Source of the DNA: Halalkalibacter suaedae
GTDB taxonomy: Bacteria; Bacillota; Bacilli; Bacillales; Bacillaceae_D
Length of the DNA: 64,000 bases
Direction: 5' to 3'
NCBI RefSeq assembly: GCF_017939705.1
Contig: NZ_JAGKSQ010000001.1
Location: 310,001-374,000, forward strand
The notes beneath the pieces were generated by a model. The model saw only the letters and a program-made list of their open reading frames with translations. It ran no database searches and was not told the DNA's origin. Below, piece after piece: positions 42,109 to 49,390 of this stretch (the first letter of the stretch is position 1; the number at the start of each line of letters is the position of its first letter). The position numbers and the translations under genes are program-made.

Positions 42109-43746
42109 TTAAGTTGACCCATTCATTTTCTTATTCTTATTTAAAATTCGGAATCGATTACCAAGAACTTGTCCAGCTAGATTAGTACGGTAAGACAAAA
42201 ACATATAAATAATTAATCCAGCTCCTGCCCCCAATATTAGAGTAGCAAATTGCCCGAAACGAGATGGCTCCGTCATAAATTCCTTCATACCCACATTAAT
42301 CGTAATAACACCAATTGCCATAACAAATGAGAATAGTGAAATAAGGATCGTTCGTTTTAAGATAAAGCGATAATTAAATTCTGCATATTTACCTATCGCC
42401 CAAACTGTAATGCCGAGTGAGGCAAAATAGCCAAGATATGTAGAAAAAACTCCACCAAGCGGACCCATTAGAACGAGCAGCCATTTTGTTGTCATTAATT
42501 TCATCGTTAAACCAACTGCTAGAGCGATCACTGCGTATTTCTGTTTATTGATTCCCTGCAATATTGCTGCCGTTACCGCAAATAAAGAAAAGAATAATGC
42601 GATTGGGGCATAATAACGTAAAATAAAACCGCCTATTTCTATATCTGCCAAGCCATATAAAGAACCGAATACAGGATATGAAAGAACAGATAGACCTACA
42701 GCAGCCGGAATCGTTAAGAATAAAATGATTTGAAATGTTTGGGTAATCTGTTTTTGTAATATTCCTTTATCTTGGTTCGTGAATGATTTTGTAATCGTTG
42801 GAATCAACGTAATTGACAATGCCGTCGCTAAAGCCATTGGAATTAAGATAACCTTATGAGCTGTTCCTGAAAAAACAGCAAAATACGTTTCAGCTACAAG
42901 CTTATCCCAACCATTACTTGTGAGTGTTTTATTAAAGGTAAACATATCAATTAATTGATACAAGGGCAGTGCTAGACCCACAAATGAAAGGGGTAATGCG
43001 TAGGCAACCAACTCCTTGTACATGCTTTTAAATGAAAGCTTGTGATCAACCTTACTTAGTTCAATTTGTTCTTGGATTGATTGCTTTCTTTTGAACCAAT
43101 AAGTTAGCAAAACCGCCAGCCCGCCAAGTGCACCGACAAATGCACCAAACGTTGCAAAACCAACTGCTTTTCCTGTATTTCCATTCATGACTTCAACAAT
43201 GACAAAGGTAATTGACAAAATAAAAATAATACGTACAAGCTGCTCTACCACTTGAGAAACAGCCGTCGGTCCCATTGATTGAAAACCTTGGAAATAACCA
43301 CGAATCACAGACATAATTGGAACAACTATTAGTGCAACACTGACCATTCGTATTGTAAAAACAATATCTTCATAGGAGTTACCTTGCAAGTCTGATGTAT
43401 CGACAACCATTGGAGCAAGCTTAGGTGCAGATAAGAAGAGTAAGAGAAAAGCAATGAATCCACTTATTGATAAAATAAAAAGTCCTGATTTGAATAAACG
43501 GTGTCCTGTATTGTAATCACCTAATGCATGATATTTAGAGACAAACTTTGAAATAGCTAATGGTACCCCAAGTGTTGCCAAGCTTAATAAAACAGTATAG
43601 GGTAAATATCCATACTGGTATAATGCAATCCCGGTTTGGCCAACAATGGCTGTAAAAGGGAAAATGTAAATGAGGCCAAGAATTTTCGAAGCGATTGTGG
43701 CAGCTGTTAAGATAGCCGTCCCTCGCATTAATTTTGAATCTGACAT
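42109..43746 (-). CDS. ytgP: YtgP, MurJ-type lipid II flippase
   Basis: A 14-helix MVF/MOP-family exporter of 545 residues (B. subtilis YtgP, functionally MurJ). It begins with LMRGTAILTAATIASKILGLIYIFPF reduced here to its key features: a conserved small-residue first helix (about 5-30), LATLGVPLAISKFVSKYHA (about 56-74), RGYFQGFQSMGPTAVSQVVEQ (about 150-170) with the basic residues lining the cavity, and LIPTITKSF (about 313). It moves lipid-linked peptidoglycan precursor across the membrane, supplying the two SEDS polymerases next to it. The ATG has GAAGGAA upstream. Confidence 0.92.
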   Translation of the reverse strand: MSDSKLMRGTAILTAATIASKILGLIYIFPFTAIVGQTGIALYQYGYLPYTVLLSLATLGVPLAISKFVSKYHALGDYNTGHRLFKSGLFILSISGFIAFLLLFLSAPKLAPMVVDTSDLQGNSYEDIVFTIRMVSVALIVVPIMSVIRGYFQGFQSMGPTAVSQVVEQLVRIIFILSITFVIVEVMNGNTGKAVGFATFGAFVGALGGLAVLLTYWFKRKQSIQEQIELSKVDHKLSFKSMYKELVAYALPLSFVGLALPLYQLIDMFTFNKTLTSNGWDKLVAETYFAVFSGTAHKVILIPMALATALSITLIPTITKSFTNQDKGILQKQITQTFQIILFLTIPAAVGLSVLSYPVFGSLYGLADIEIGGFILRYYAPIALFFSLFAVTAAILQGINKQKYAVIALAVGLTMKLMTTKWLLVLMGPLGGVFSTYLGYFASLGITVWAIGKYAEFNYRFILKRTILISLFSFVMAIGVITINVGMKEFMTEPSRFGQFATLILGAGAGLIIYMFLSYRTNLAGQVLGNRFRILNKNKKMNGST

Positions 43747-43891
43747 CCACGATTCCTTCTTTCTAGTCGATAAACTCTAATGCATTTTACCATATCCACA
43801 GACGAGTTGCTCAGTAAAACATTCCATTTTGTGAATAAACATGCTACTTTTGATTAAATAGTTCGGCTACAGATCTTAATGAGGTGAAATA

Positions 43892-45160
43892 ATGAAACAA
43901 GATGTAATTGTTATTGGAGGCGGTCCATCTGGACTGATGGCGTCGATTGCCGCCGCTAAACACGGTGCTCAGGTCCTTTTAATTGATAAAGGAAACAAAC
44001 TAGGGAGAAAGCTAGCAATCTCTGGTGGTGGACGATGTAATGTGACAAATCGAATGGAAATTCAAGACCTTATTGCCCACATACCTGGAAATGGACGCTT
44101 CATGCATAGTCCTTTCTCTGTTTTTAATAATGAAGACATTATTGACTATTTTGAAGGGCTTGGAATTGCATTAAAAGAAGAGGACCGCGGCAGAATGTTC
44201 CCTGTTAATAATAAGGCGACCACTGTAGTTGAAACGCTCCTCAATCAAGTAAGGTCTCTTGGTGTTCAAATTAGAACGAACACAACCGTTAGAACAATTG
44301 AGTATGAGAACGAAGCCGTTAAAGCCGTTAAATTAGACAATGGTGAACTTATACAAACGTCTGCTGTCATAGTCGCTACTGGTGGGAAATCTGTACCCCA
44401 TACAGGTTCTACAGGAGATGGTTATCCATGGGCTGAAAAAGCAGGCCATACAATTACCGACTTATACCCTACTGAAGTGCCTATCACGTCAAATGAGCGA
44501 TTCATCAAAGAGAAGAAACTTCAAGGTGTATCCCTAAGAGATATTGAACTAACCGTGTACAATCCAAAAGGAAAAAAGATTAAAACTCACGATGGTGATA
44601 TGATTTTTACTCACTTTGGTATTTCAGGGCCCGCTACCCTTCGTTGTAGTCAGTATGTCGTTAAAGCTCTTAAGAAATTTAGTACACCAACAATCAAAAT
44701 GGAGATTGATTTATTTCCAAAACAGTCTAGTGAAAGCCTCTTTCAGGAAATCTTATCAGAGGTCAAAGATAATCCAAAGAAGTCTTTAAAAAATACGTTA
44801 AAAGGACTTGCTGTTGAACGCTTCTTACTTTTTGTTTACGAATCACTTTCAATCGACTCCCAGCTAGATAGTCAGTCAATTCCGCACGACCAGTTAAGAG
44901 CCATTGTTAAGATGTGTAAACAGTTTGAAATCGAGGTTAATGGAACTCTATCGATCGAAAAGGCGTTTGTCACTGGCGGAGGCGTCTCAATCAAAGAAAT
45001 AGAACCTAAAACCATGCATTCAAAAAAAGCAGAAGGCCTATACTTTTGTGGAGAAGTTCTCGATATTCATGGGTATACAGGTGGGTATAACATTACAGTC
45101 GCTTTTTCCACAGGCTATACTGCCGGTAAGTCAGCAGCGGAACATGTTTTGCACAGATAA
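43892..45160 (+). CDS. ytfP: YtfP, HI0933-like FAD-dependent oxidoreductase
   Basis: A 422-residue flavoprotein. N-terminal FAD Rossmann motif [20 protein letters not shown] (residues 5-24), then [18 protein letters not shown] (about 38-55), the HI0933 family mark, an inserted domain (about 195-330), and C-terminal [16 protein letters not shown] with [13 protein letters not shown] near residue 390. The physiological substrate of this family is not known. A GAGGTGA RBS precedes the ATG. It is convergent with leuS across an intergenic region rich in DnaA boxes. Confidence 0.93.
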
Positions 45161-45307
45161 TATCCACATTACACACAGATTTAATAATTATTTACCCACG
45201 ATCGTTCAATTTTCTACAAAAAACGCGTAGTTTCACGCCTCGATCAAAAATGAGCGGTGTGGATAATCGGTGCTTATCCACACACCTGTCCACAAGTAGG
45301 TGGATAA
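45160..45307. promoter_or_regulatory. Cluster of DnaA boxes between ytfP and leuS
   Basis: Boxes compared with TTATCCACA: 45258-45266 minus (exact), 45274-45282 plus (exact), 45299-45307 minus (one mismatch), 45160-45168 plus (one mismatch), and 45286-45294 plus (two mismatches). Four lie within 50 bases in both orientations. The region has convergent genes on both sides and thus no promoter to regulate. Confidence 0.7.
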
Positions 45308-45318
45308 ATAGATGAAAA

Positions 45319-45356
45319 AAGGGTGTCTTTCGTTCAGTTGAACGAGAGACACCCTT
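45319..45356. terminator. Bidirectional terminator between ytfP and leuS
   Basis: A stem of about 17 bp with one mismatch, AAGGGTGTCT...TCGTTC with GAACGA...AGACACCCTT, 11 bases past the leuS stop. Confidence 0.85.
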
Positions 45357-45367
45357 CATTTTTTGAT

Positions 45368-47791
45368 CTATCCTACAACAATGTTTACAAGCTTACCAGG
45401 TACAGCAATAACCTTACGAATCGTTTTATCTGCAATTGCTTCAATTACTTTTTCATCTGCACGAGCAATCTCTTCCATTTGTTCACGTGTTGCATCTGCT
45501 GGAATGATTAGTTTCGTACGTACTTTACCGTTTAATTGAACAACTACTTCCACTTCGTTTTCGACAAGCTGCGACTCATCATATGTTGGCCAAGCTGCAT
45601 ATGATATTGTCTCTGAATGTCCTAGCTTTTCCCAAAGCTCCTCAGCTACATGAGGGGCAATCGGTGCCAGCATTTTCACAAAGCCTTCCATATACTCTCG
45701 CGGTAACACGGTTTGTTTATATGCTTCATTTATGAATACCATCATTTGTGAGATCGCAACATTAAAGCGAAGCTCTGTCATGTCTTCAGTTATTTTCTTA
45801 ACTGATTGGTGATAGGCCCTTGTTAAACTCTCCTCACCGTTTGTTGCTTGAATCGCTTGATTTAACTCACCAGTACGCTCATCAATAAACAATCTCCATA
45901 CTCGATCTAGAAAACGACGAGCACCATCAAGACCATTTGTTGACCAAGCAATCGAACCATCTAACGGTCCCATAAACATCTCGTACAGACGTAGTGTGTC
46001 AGCACCATGGCTTTCAACAACATCATCAGGATTTACGACATTTCCTTTTGATTTACTCATCTTTTCATTATTTTCACCAAGGATCATTCCTTGATTATAT
46101 AATTTCTGGAATGGTTCTTTCGTTGAAACAACGCCGATGTCATATAAGAATTTATGCCAGAATCTCGCATATAGTAAATGCAAGACAGCATGTTCAGCTC
46201 CACCGATATAAATGTCAACTGGAAGCCATTTTTCTAATTTATCTTGATCGGCTAATGCTTCTGTATTTGTTGGATCAATATAGCGTAAATAGTACCAGCA
46301 GCTACCAGCCCACTGTGGCATTGTATTTGTTTCTCGACGTCCTTTTAGACCCGTCTTTGGATCAGTAACCTCAAGCCATTCTTTTTCATTAGCTAGTGGT
46401 GACTCGCCTGTCCCTGAAGGTCTTATTTCTTTCATTTTTGGTAAAACAAGCGGAAGCTCCTCTTCAGGCAATGCAGTCATTGTCCCGTCTTCCCAGTGAA
46501 TAATCGGAATCGGTTCACCCCAATAACGTTGACGACTGAAGAGCCAATCACGTAAACGATAGGTTACTTGTTTTTTCCCAACATGATTTGCTTCAAGCCA
46601 TGTAATCATATTAGTAATTGCGGCTTCTTTTCCAAGTCCATTTAAGAAGTCTGAATTCACATGTTCGCCTTCACCTGTATATGCTTCCTGTTCAATATCT
46701 CCACCAGAAACGACTTCACGAATGTCTAGATTGAAAGCTTTCGCAAATTCAAAGTCTCTCTCATCATGTGCTGGAACAGCCATAATCGCACCAGTTCCAT
46801 AGCTAACTAATACATAATCAGCAATCCAAACTGGAATCTTTTCACCATTAACAGGGTTAATCGCATAAGCACCAGTAAAGACCCCTGTCTTCTCTTTCGA
46901 TAATTCAGTTCGTTCAAGATCACTCTTAGCCGCAACTTTGACCTTATACGTTTCAACATCCTGTTTTTGATCTTCTGATGTTATAATGTTCACTAATTTA
47001 TGTTCAGGTGCCAACACCATGTAAGTTGCACCGAACAATGTATCAGGTCGTGTTGTAAACACCTTAACTTCCTCATTCTGATAGCCGTCTACCTTAAAGG
47101 TAACTTCAGCCCCTTCAGAACGACCAATCCAGTTACGTTGCATATCTTTTATACTTTCAGGCCAGTCAAGCTCTTCTAAATCTTCAAGAAGACGATCTGC
47201 ATATGCTGTAATTTTCAACATCCATTGCTTCATCGGTCGACGTTCAACTGGATGACCGCCACGCTCACTTTTCCCATCAATGACTTCTTCATTTGCTAAC
47301 ACCGTTCCAAGGGCTGGACACCAATTGACAGCAACTTCATCAATATACGCCAAGCCTTTTTCGTACAACTTCGTGAATATCCACTGCGTCCATTTATAGT
47401 AACCTGGATCTGTCGTATTCACTTCACGATCCCAGTCATAAGAAAAACCAAGAGCTTTAATTTGACGACGGAAATTATCAATATTTTGCTTTGTGAAAAT
47501 AGCTGGATCATTCCCAGTATCAAGAGCATATTGCTCTGCTGGTAAGCCAAACGCATCCCACCCCATTGGATGAAGCACATTATATCCTTGCATTCGTTTC
47601 ATTCGCGATAGAATATCAGTTGCCGTGTAGCCCTCTGGGTGACCTACATGAAGTCCAGCTCCTGATGGATATGGAAACATATCCAAAGCATAAAACTTTG
47701 GCTTATTCTCTTCTTCCTTTGTTTTAAATGTTTTGTTTTGTTCCCAGTACTGTTGCCATTTCGGCTCAACATGCTCGTGTGAAAAAGACAT
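45368..47791 (-). CDS. leuS: Leucyl-tRNA synthetase
   Basis: Class I aminoacyl-tRNA synthetase of 807 residues. The HIGH-type motif is [17 protein letters not shown] (about residues 40-56), the KMSKS loop is [16 protein letters not shown] (about 575-590), and the CP1 editing domain lies between ([19 protein letters not shown] about 245-263; [15 protein letters not shown] about 335-349). The ATG at 47791 has AGGAGG upstream; the frame extends 12 codons further without an RBS. Expression is controlled by the T-box leader just upstream. Confidence 0.97.
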
Positions 47792-47857
47792 TTCTTCTGC
47801 GCCTCCTAATAATGTGTATCTTCTCATACGTCATTAAACGTATAGTTAAGTCAAAAC

Positions 47858-48116
47858 AAAAAACCCCCATCCCTAACAAACCTGTTAGGGACGAGAGTTT
47901 AATCCCGCGGTACCACCCACATTAATAAATGTACATATAGACATTTATTCACTTAAAACGCATAACGGGCGTGATCCGTTGAAAACTACATAACGATTCG
48001 CTTTCAAAACTCAAAGGCGAGTTCACAATAGAAGTTCGACTGACTCGCACCTTCCGTCAGTTCTCTGCATTCCCAACTATAGCTACTATTCCTTGTCAAC
48101 ATTAACGTATGAACTT
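47858..48116 (-). ncRNA. T-box leader (tRNA-Leu sensing) of leuS
   Basis: The minus strand holds the conserved T-box sequence TGGGTGGTACCGCGG (47919-47905), followed by an intrinsic terminator: TCCCTAAC/GTTAGGGA stem (47891-47870) and a T6 run (47863-47858). The upstream part has the stem I elements AGAGAACTGACGGAAGGTGCG typical of T-boxes. A CTC leucine triplet in GAACTCGCC (48021-48019) is the likely specifier. Uncharged tRNA-Leu should favour the antiterminator and leuS expression. The promoter is at 48123-48151. Confidence 0.93.
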
Positions 48117-48122
48117 ATTAGT

Positions 48123-48151
48123 ATTGTATGAATTCAGAACCTCGCTGTCAA
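48123..48151 (-). promoter_or_regulatory. Promoter of the leuS T-box transcript
   Basis: On the minus strand TTGACA (48151-48146), a 17-bp spacer and TACAAT (48128-48123), near the sigma-A consensus. Confidence 0.85.
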
Positions 48152-48172
48152 GCAGGTCCATAAGAAATTCAC

Positions 48173-49390
48173 TCATATTTCCGAAGTGACAGTTTGATTC
48201 TCATCTAAGATCACATTTGTTTGCGGTCTTTTTAGAGGATAATCATAAATAGTTAGAACAGCAATGGCCAGTAGAAACAACATCAGTAAAGCATAAATAA
48301 GCATTGAAATCGAAAACAGATCGACAATCATACCACCAAGTAATGGCCCTACCATCCGACCACCTGTTGCAACACTATTGACAATTCCTTGATAAAATCC
48401 TTCCTTACCTTTAGGTGCAAGCTTATTGGCAATCGTTGGAACAGCCGGCCATACAAACATTTCACCGATTGTTAGGATAATCATTGCCACTAGAAACATT
48501 GAGAACACACTCGCCTGCAATAACACCACGTACGACAGCATAAAGATAATCACACCAATAATCATTTGCTGCTTAAGGGTATGAACCCACTTTCGAATGA
48601 CCCAAGATAACAATGGCTGAACACAAACGATCATCAAGCCATTAATTGTCCACAAGAAACTATAATGTTGTAGTGAAATGTCCAATGTCTGCATATGAAC
48701 AGAAACATTTGCCTGCCATTGCGTGTAAGCAATCCAACAAATAAAAAAGGCAATTGACAATAAAGTCAACGCTTGGAGTCGATAATTACTTCGAAGAGAT
48801 AGCTTCGGCTTAAACGAAATGGCCGCATGCGATTCCTTCGATCCCTCTCCAATCGTACGAAAACAAATAAGAATGAATAAAAGCAACCCGATATACATGA
48901 TAGCATTAGCTGAAAAAACAGCAGTTAACTGAATAGAGGCTACAACACCTACGAGGGCTGTTCCAAGGGCAACTCCAACATTCTGAGCAACATAAATGGC
49001 ATTGAAAGCTCGTCTTCCCCCTTCAGGCCATAAGCTCCCCGCTAGTGCATACATGGCTGGAAAGATTAAGCCAGTTCCAAAGCCAATTCCAATTAACAAG
49101 AACATGTAGAAATAGAATGTATTAAAAAACACAAGGACTAGAGCACTAACTGATGTGACCGTAACGCCTAGGACCATTGTTTTAAACGCACCAATTTTGT
49201 CAAACATTCTACCACCAATTAAGTTACCAATCACACCTGCACCTGCATTTAACATAAGAACAAAGCCAGCCATAGTAAGTGATTTTCCAAGTTCCTGATG
49301 AATGATAATGGCATTTAATGGCCATAGAAATGAGGCACCGGTAACGTTGATAATCATCGCTATAATAAGTAACCAAAGTGACTTCGGCAT
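48173..49390 (-). CDS. yttB: MFS transporter, YttB type
   Basis: A 405-residue, 12-helix major facilitator. The N-terminal half carries the MFS loop 2-3 motif GNLIGGRMFDKIGAFKTMVL (about residues 55-74) and a glycine/proline-rich helix 4 region GIGFGTGLIFPAMYAL. It resembles B. subtilis YttB, whose substrate is unknown and which is usually grouped with drug-efflux MFS proteins. GAGGGGG lies seven to eight bases before the ATG. It is codirectional with leuS downstream but has the leuS promoter in between. Confidence 0.85.
   Translation of the reverse strand: MPKSLWLLIIAMIINVTGASFLWPLNAIIIHQELGKSLTMAGFVLMLNAGAGVIGNLIGGRMFDKIGAFKTMVLGVTVTSVSALVLVFFNTFYFYMFLLIGIGFGTGLIFPAMYALAGSLWPEGGRRAFNAIYVAQNVGVALGTALVGVVASIQLTAVFSANAIMYIGLLLFILICFRTIGEGSKESHAAISFKPKLSLRSNYRLQALTLLSIAFFICWIAYTQWQANVSVHMQTLDISLQHYSFLWTINGLMIVCVQPLLSWVIRKWVHTLKQQMIIGVIIFMLSYVVLLQASVFSMFLVAMIILTIGEMFVWPAVPTIANKLAPKGKEGFYQGIVNSVATGGRMVGPLLGGMIVDLFSISMLIYALLMLFLLAIAVLTIYDYPLKRPQTNVILDENQTVTSEI

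Follow-up and report, generated by a model that had tools for sequence, protein, structure and literature searches.

DnaA-box clusters outside the origin

In Bacillus subtilis, DnaA boxes are grouped outside oriC at ywcI-vpr, gcp-ydiF, jag-trmE, ywlC, yqeG-sda and yydA, and removal of six such clusters was reported to cause early initiation (PMC5295017). Of the regions bound by DnaA in vitro, ywlC, gcp-ydiF, yydA (rlmH) and oriC rank in the top eight by strength, and gcp-ydiF also lies between two 3' ends (PMC4447404, its Table 1). According to PMC13220808, B. subtilis is without Hda, SeqA, IHF, datA and DARS, and is not known to have regulators of the ADP/ATP balance of DnaA. In Escherichia coli, the datA region is a group of boxes between converging genes away from oriC (E. 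coli record) and needs IHF, and the DARS cores set one box against two others (PMC5742627 and PMC8682772, the former for both statements).

The site considered here lies between ytfP and leuS of Halalkalibacter suaedae. An earlier note on this DNA knew of no described cluster at that position, which seems right: ytfP is not among the top-20 B. subtilis regions of PMC4447404, the main text of which names neither ytfP nor leuS, its full list of 269 regions being in the supplement. No DnaA-box cluster at ytfP-leuS was found in a search of the open-licence literature, and none of the titles on alkaliphiles concerned DnaA-box clusters.

The ytfP-leuS site and its predicted boxes

The window, i.e. 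the whole stretch of 64,000 nucleotides analysed, corresponds to C11:310001-374000 in a draft genome that comprises 30 contigs and 4.32 Mb. Since ytfP is on the plus strand and leuS on the minus strand, both confirmed by family models, the gap between them is convergent and bounded by two 3' ends, as had been proposed (Table 1). Compared with the 12 closest named loci (among the best 80 of 381), most of which are Halalkalibacter, the YtfP of the window shows 75-82% identity, and by this measure the host would belong to that genus. At the other end of leuS, a T-box leader is present 5' of the gene (47884-48108, minus strand; Rfam RF00230, 132.7 bits), as expected for an aminoacyl-tRNA synthetase gene.

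Five boxes had been claimed within 45160-45307. Four of them are within one mismatch of TTATCCACA in these 148 bp, two being exact, and the fifth, most likely B3, has two mismatches; A1 and A3 are additional to that description.

Table 1. Genes, predicted DnaA boxes and hairpin at the ytfP-leuS gap (window coordinates; identity is the mean pairwise value over nine aligned sequences).
Feature	Sequence	Position	Strand	Identity (%)	Remarks
ytfP, aminoacetone oxidase family FAD-binding enzyme		43892..45160	+		left neighbour; TIGR00275; stop codon 45158-45160
Putative DnaA box A1	TTTTGCACA	45147..45155	+	73	fits TTWTNCACA; inside last ytfP codons
Putative DnaA box A2	ATATCCACA	45160..45168	+	93	begins at final base of ytfP stop codon
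Degenerate DnaA box A3	TTACACACA	45169..45177	+	80	one mismatch to TTWTNCACA
Putative DnaA box B1	TTATCCACA	45258..45266	-	59	exact; weakest conserved position
Putative DnaA box B2	TTATCCACA	45274..45282	+	95	exact
Degenerate DnaA box B3	CTGTCCACA	45286..45294	+	81	two mismatches; 12 bp past B2
Putative DnaA box B4	TTATCCACC	45299..45307	-		counterpart in 0 of 8 other aligned sequences
Terminator-like hairpin		45319..45356	+		past cluster; with T tract; terminator scan
leuS, leucine--tRNA ligase		45368..47827	-		right neighbour; TIGR00396

Box numbers in the window and the genome

The densest 148 bp of the window hold four boxes at no more than one mismatch, a number reached in none of 400 Markov simulations of the window (200 first-order, 200 third-order), where the largest was three. 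The window total is ordinary, with 26 boxes against 21.35 expected and as many in 20 of 100 shuffles. Across the 4.32-Mb genome there is no excess of exact boxes (49, against 48 for a reversed-pattern control), and the signal is therefore one of clustering: nine pairs of exact boxes within 100 bp were found at six places, namely oriC, rlmH, ywlC, yqeG-sda, the ytfP-leuS gap and the ilvD/srtD gap, whereas about 0.05 pairs would be expected from 49 boxes. The excess over background to which the earlier note looked thus held for local clustering (0 of 400 simulations) but not for total numbers. Tandem box pairs occur at four places in the own genome, three of which are oriC, rlmH and tsaD (control, one place), and divergent pairs at two, one being the ytfP-leuS gap, with hardly fewer (one place) for the reversed control. 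The missing genome-wide excess and the near-control count of divergent pairs would suit an origin by chance or composition, in which the AT-rich gaps of the genus collect DnaA-like 9-mers without function; the simulated windows argue against it, as do the conservation and the pattern screen described below.

Box groups in the own genome are also present at oriC, tsaD (gcp), rlmH (yydA), ywlC and yqeG-sda. The tsaD group, the counterpart of B. subtilis gcp-ydiF, comprises eight boxes at no more than one mismatch behind the gene, one of them exact (L118:3944-4115, G000:C30); it is the densest of nine stretches looked at, and a 716-aa ORF separates it from the ydiF-like gene. For jag-trmE, no box within one mismatch was found in L115 (8001 bases) beyond 4941, where we take jag to lie from the gene order.

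Conservation of the boxes in relatives

Two blocks stand out in an alignment of nine sequences. Block A consists of up to three plus-strand boxes across the ytfP stop codon; block B follows about 70 bp beyond A, some 85-125 bp past the stop, and in most relatives contains a minus box followed by one or two plus boxes spaced by a helical turn, the second plus box standing 12 bp on and the minus box being unrecognisable in both H. oceani sequences. At the A3 position, a box within one mismatch is found in six of the eight other sequences. The boxes are selectively conserved while the surrounding DNA changes: mean pairwise identity is 59-95% at the six aligned boxes, compared with 40% for the spacer, 38% for the DNA following the block and a mean of 39% (maximum 55%) for 121 other 9-mers, although B1 at 59% barely exceeds the best non-box 9-mer and the alignment program tends to align shared words. 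The conservation that the earlier note had made a test of its proposal is also borne out by counts in the genus, where 11 of 13 genomes have at least three boxes between positions -20 and +180 relative to the ytfP stop. The footprint counts against a chance origin, as does the scarcity of boxes in the rest of the 80 loci (best of 381), where 0.00-0.24 occur per 200 bp; the densest other 200 bp there, with four boxes, belongs to L012, in which the cluster extends past the counted stretch.

The two remaining genus genomes (G006 and G011) have no box within one mismatch behind ytfP. In G011, the leuS end comes after ytfP across a short box-free gap, and in G006, where a frame change in ytfP shifted the counted stretch, the correct place was inspected and was again without a box. 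The G006 frame shift (L094/L099) lies near the 3' end of ytfP, and may reflect a real change or a sequencing error, the cluster being absent. The ytfP of G005 is split across contigs and was counted from its 3' part (L096).

The 80 named loci were selected, as the best of 381 confirmed, for their similarity to the window; at least three boxes are present in 14 of them, one in five and none in 61. Those with at least three are all 12 of the closest named loci and two of the 68 others (Bacillus piscicola and Alteribacillus persepolensis), whereas no boxes are present in the loci sampled from Shouchella, Alkalicoccobacillus and Halalkalibacterium halodurans or in the one titled B. subtilis (L077). 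Because some species occur both among the named loci and among the genus genomes, the two counts are not additive. Absence from two of 13 genus genomes and from 61 of these best 80 loci indicates that the site is dispensable over evolution. The cluster stays beside ytfP where leuS is 0.98-2.4 kb off (L004-L007, L009-L011), in a survey restricted to loci without a minus-strand match (the genus count of 11 of 13 includes those with one), and in three genomes of another family (L152-L154) it adjoins leuS with no ytfP match within 3 kb. It is therefore unlikely to serve one gene.

These comparisons also bear on the inverted repeat formed by the two exact boxes, which is perfect over 10 bp with a 7-nt loop and matches the terminator scan on the minus strand, as would befit a terminator or other RNA hairpin to which DnaA is irrelevant. 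Of 12 sequences, six pair at eight or more of nine positions, and L015 shows a joint change of the two arms, though at the free position of the box. Pairing is nonetheless full in only three of the 12, reaches eight of nine in three and seven in two, and falls to five or six in four, which does not describe an intrinsic terminator. The cluster is followed by a better hairpin that has a T tract, Rfam has no match in the gap (its only match in 43000-48500 is the leuS T-box), and block A, though conserved, takes no part in the exact-box hairpin. An RNA role is consequently very improbable.

A role in local transcription, with DnaA bound but acting in end-of-gene control of ytfP or leuS, at an antisense promoter or as a read-through block, is less remote but still unlikely. 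Several B. subtilis clusters do precede genes, for instance sda and ywlC (PMC4447404, Table 1), and promoter-like minus-strand matches are present in the gap at 45292-45263 and 45216-45187. Such sites number 10 in 43600-48000, however, against 11.4 expected from shuffles, which places the gap matches at chance level; moreover, the gap lies between 3' ends and the genes beside the cluster differ between lineages. The gap upstream of ytfP also has two boxes with one mismatch each (43792-43838, starting at 43792 and 43830). They suggested a layout in which boxes flank ytfP on either side, as they do dnaA; this was rejected because the 200 bp upstream of ytfP are free of boxes in all of the 12 closest named loci (best 80 of 381).

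A three-box arrangement across the order

A strict triple (inverted box, box, box) was shaped on block B of the relatives' ytfP sites; the window's own site does not fit it because B3 is degenerate. The triple was found at nine places in eight of 41 family genomes and at 71 places in 66 of 397 genomes drawn from a larger group for the order, one place being shared between the sets. The reversed control pattern had no match in any of the 41 and 397 genomes, and with this, the footprint and the simulations taken together, a chance origin is hardly credible.

The 79 distinct places, in 74 loci spanning only 1.5 kb on each side, were compared with 13 kinds of own-genome protein. They adjoin ytfP and/or leuS, at the 3' ends, in 12 cases, ywlC in 33, gcp and/or ydiF in eight, dnaA in four and rlmH and/or htrA in three; the 19 elsewhere belong to 14 loci, with neighbours that include murA, hisZ and a chemotaxis receptor gene. 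With 48 of the 79 at dnaA, ywlC, gcp-ydiF and rlmH/htrA, most of the places that the pattern picks out correspond to DnaA regions already known. The 12 ytfP/leuS triples span three families by label (f1, f5, f42), have gaps of 7-11 and 3-4 bases between 8-base cores, and share the inverted-direct-direct arrangement with the ywlC, gcp and rlmH/htrA sites of other genomes as well as with dnaA.

Some loci depart from the simple layout. Five genomes of one family (f44; L163-L167) have two overlapping triples in opposite directions, near which L165 has a large ORF with only a weak domain match (PF13749). In L138, L178 and other ywlC loci, the triple seems to lie inside the first 25 or so codons of ywlC, judging from alignments extended to residue 1, so that the boxes would be partly coding.

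Comparison with oriC, datA and DARS

In E. coli oriC the boxes at the two edges point away from each other, the left one being minus and the right one plus, while those between them are of either orientation; B1 and B2 diverge likewise. The ytfP-leuS cluster differs in lying away from dnaA and dnaN, which sets it apart from a replication origin. On shared contigs of four relatives the distance from dnaA is 0.7-0.9 Mb: about 0.76 Mb in G021 (using the chromosome size of its named counterpart), 0.72 in G154, 0.74 in G205 and 0.90 in G024, values that follow gene order and so are not independent evidence. The own genome, in which dnaA is on another contig (C28), is too fragmented for such a distance.

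Like datA and DARS, the site might alter the nucleotide state of DnaA beyond holding the protein. In favour of this are the inverted-direct-direct order with preferred gaps that the relatives' sites share with the ywlC, gcp and rlmH sites, the one-against-two design of the DARS cores and the datA-like position between converging genes. The DARS1 and DARS2 cores, taken here as the stretches whose three-box sets fit the published description, resemble the triple in having one box opposed to two and 12 bp between the direct pair. They differ in that the ACA ends of their opposed boxes are turned towards each other, at a distance of 14 bp, whereas at ytfP-leuS and in the triples the opposed box is on the TT side; DARS membership would call for facing ACA ends with start spacings of 14 and 12 bp, which the site does not have. 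Nor was its triple geometry seen to be shared with datA, the minimal set of which comprises box 7, box 2, an IHF site and box 3, and neither datA and DARS nor the IHF that datA needs is found in B. subtilis, as cited above. A switch of nucleotide state is thus improbable, more so than local transcription.

A different group, at L113:6258-6291 (G000:C6) in the gap that separates the 3' end of ilvD from a class D sortase gene on its 5' side, has two exact opposed boxes with facing ACA ends, 16 bp apart, immediately preceded by a one-mismatch plus box. This plus-plus-minus order is that of the E. coli DARS core on the other strand, with spacings of 9/16 rather than 12/14.

A broader proposal is that a single geometric core is common to the extra-origin clusters of Bacillales. 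This core, an inverted box and two further boxes with preferred gaps and facing TT ends, would assemble a particular DnaA oligomer and change DnaA activity as a Gram-positive counterpart of datA. We regard this as a doubtful, low-probability extension; if it were true, ytfP-leuS would be a lineage-specific member, and such elements would come and go independently of genes.

A predicted DnaA sink

The site is real and conserved and, judged from its sequence, very probably a DnaA site. Several grouped boxes outside oriC are what defines the B. subtilis clusters, and we favour, at a probability of about 0.62, a predicted extra-origin DnaA-box cluster of that kind, cooperatively bound and acting as a DnaA sink. 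The DnaA reservoir suggested in the earlier note is supported in part, by the local clustering and the conservation of the boxes. DnaA would bind the box blocks cooperatively, and the cluster would lower free DnaA instead of acting on a promoter; its place between gene ends and the variation of its neighbours by lineage point to a sink rather than to promoter action. Passage of the fork would double the copy number of the cluster and may thereby put off the following initiation at the origin.

A sink is the simplest extension of B. subtilis biology, where six clusters jointly restrain initiation (PMC5295017 and PMC13220808), and we consider it the probable function on our analysis. Against it count the 19 of 79 triple places at other loci and the divergent pairs hardly above control, and simple titration is weakened by the report that B. 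subtilis did not initiate in excess when DnaA was overproduced tenfold (PMC13220808). The cluster is probably lineage-specific and would add a further position to those of a known type of element.

The three-box screen offers a simple means of listing candidate clusters across many genomes. Present in some lineages only and lying between converging genes, the ytfP-leuS cluster would provide a natural test of DnaA sequestration apart from transcription.
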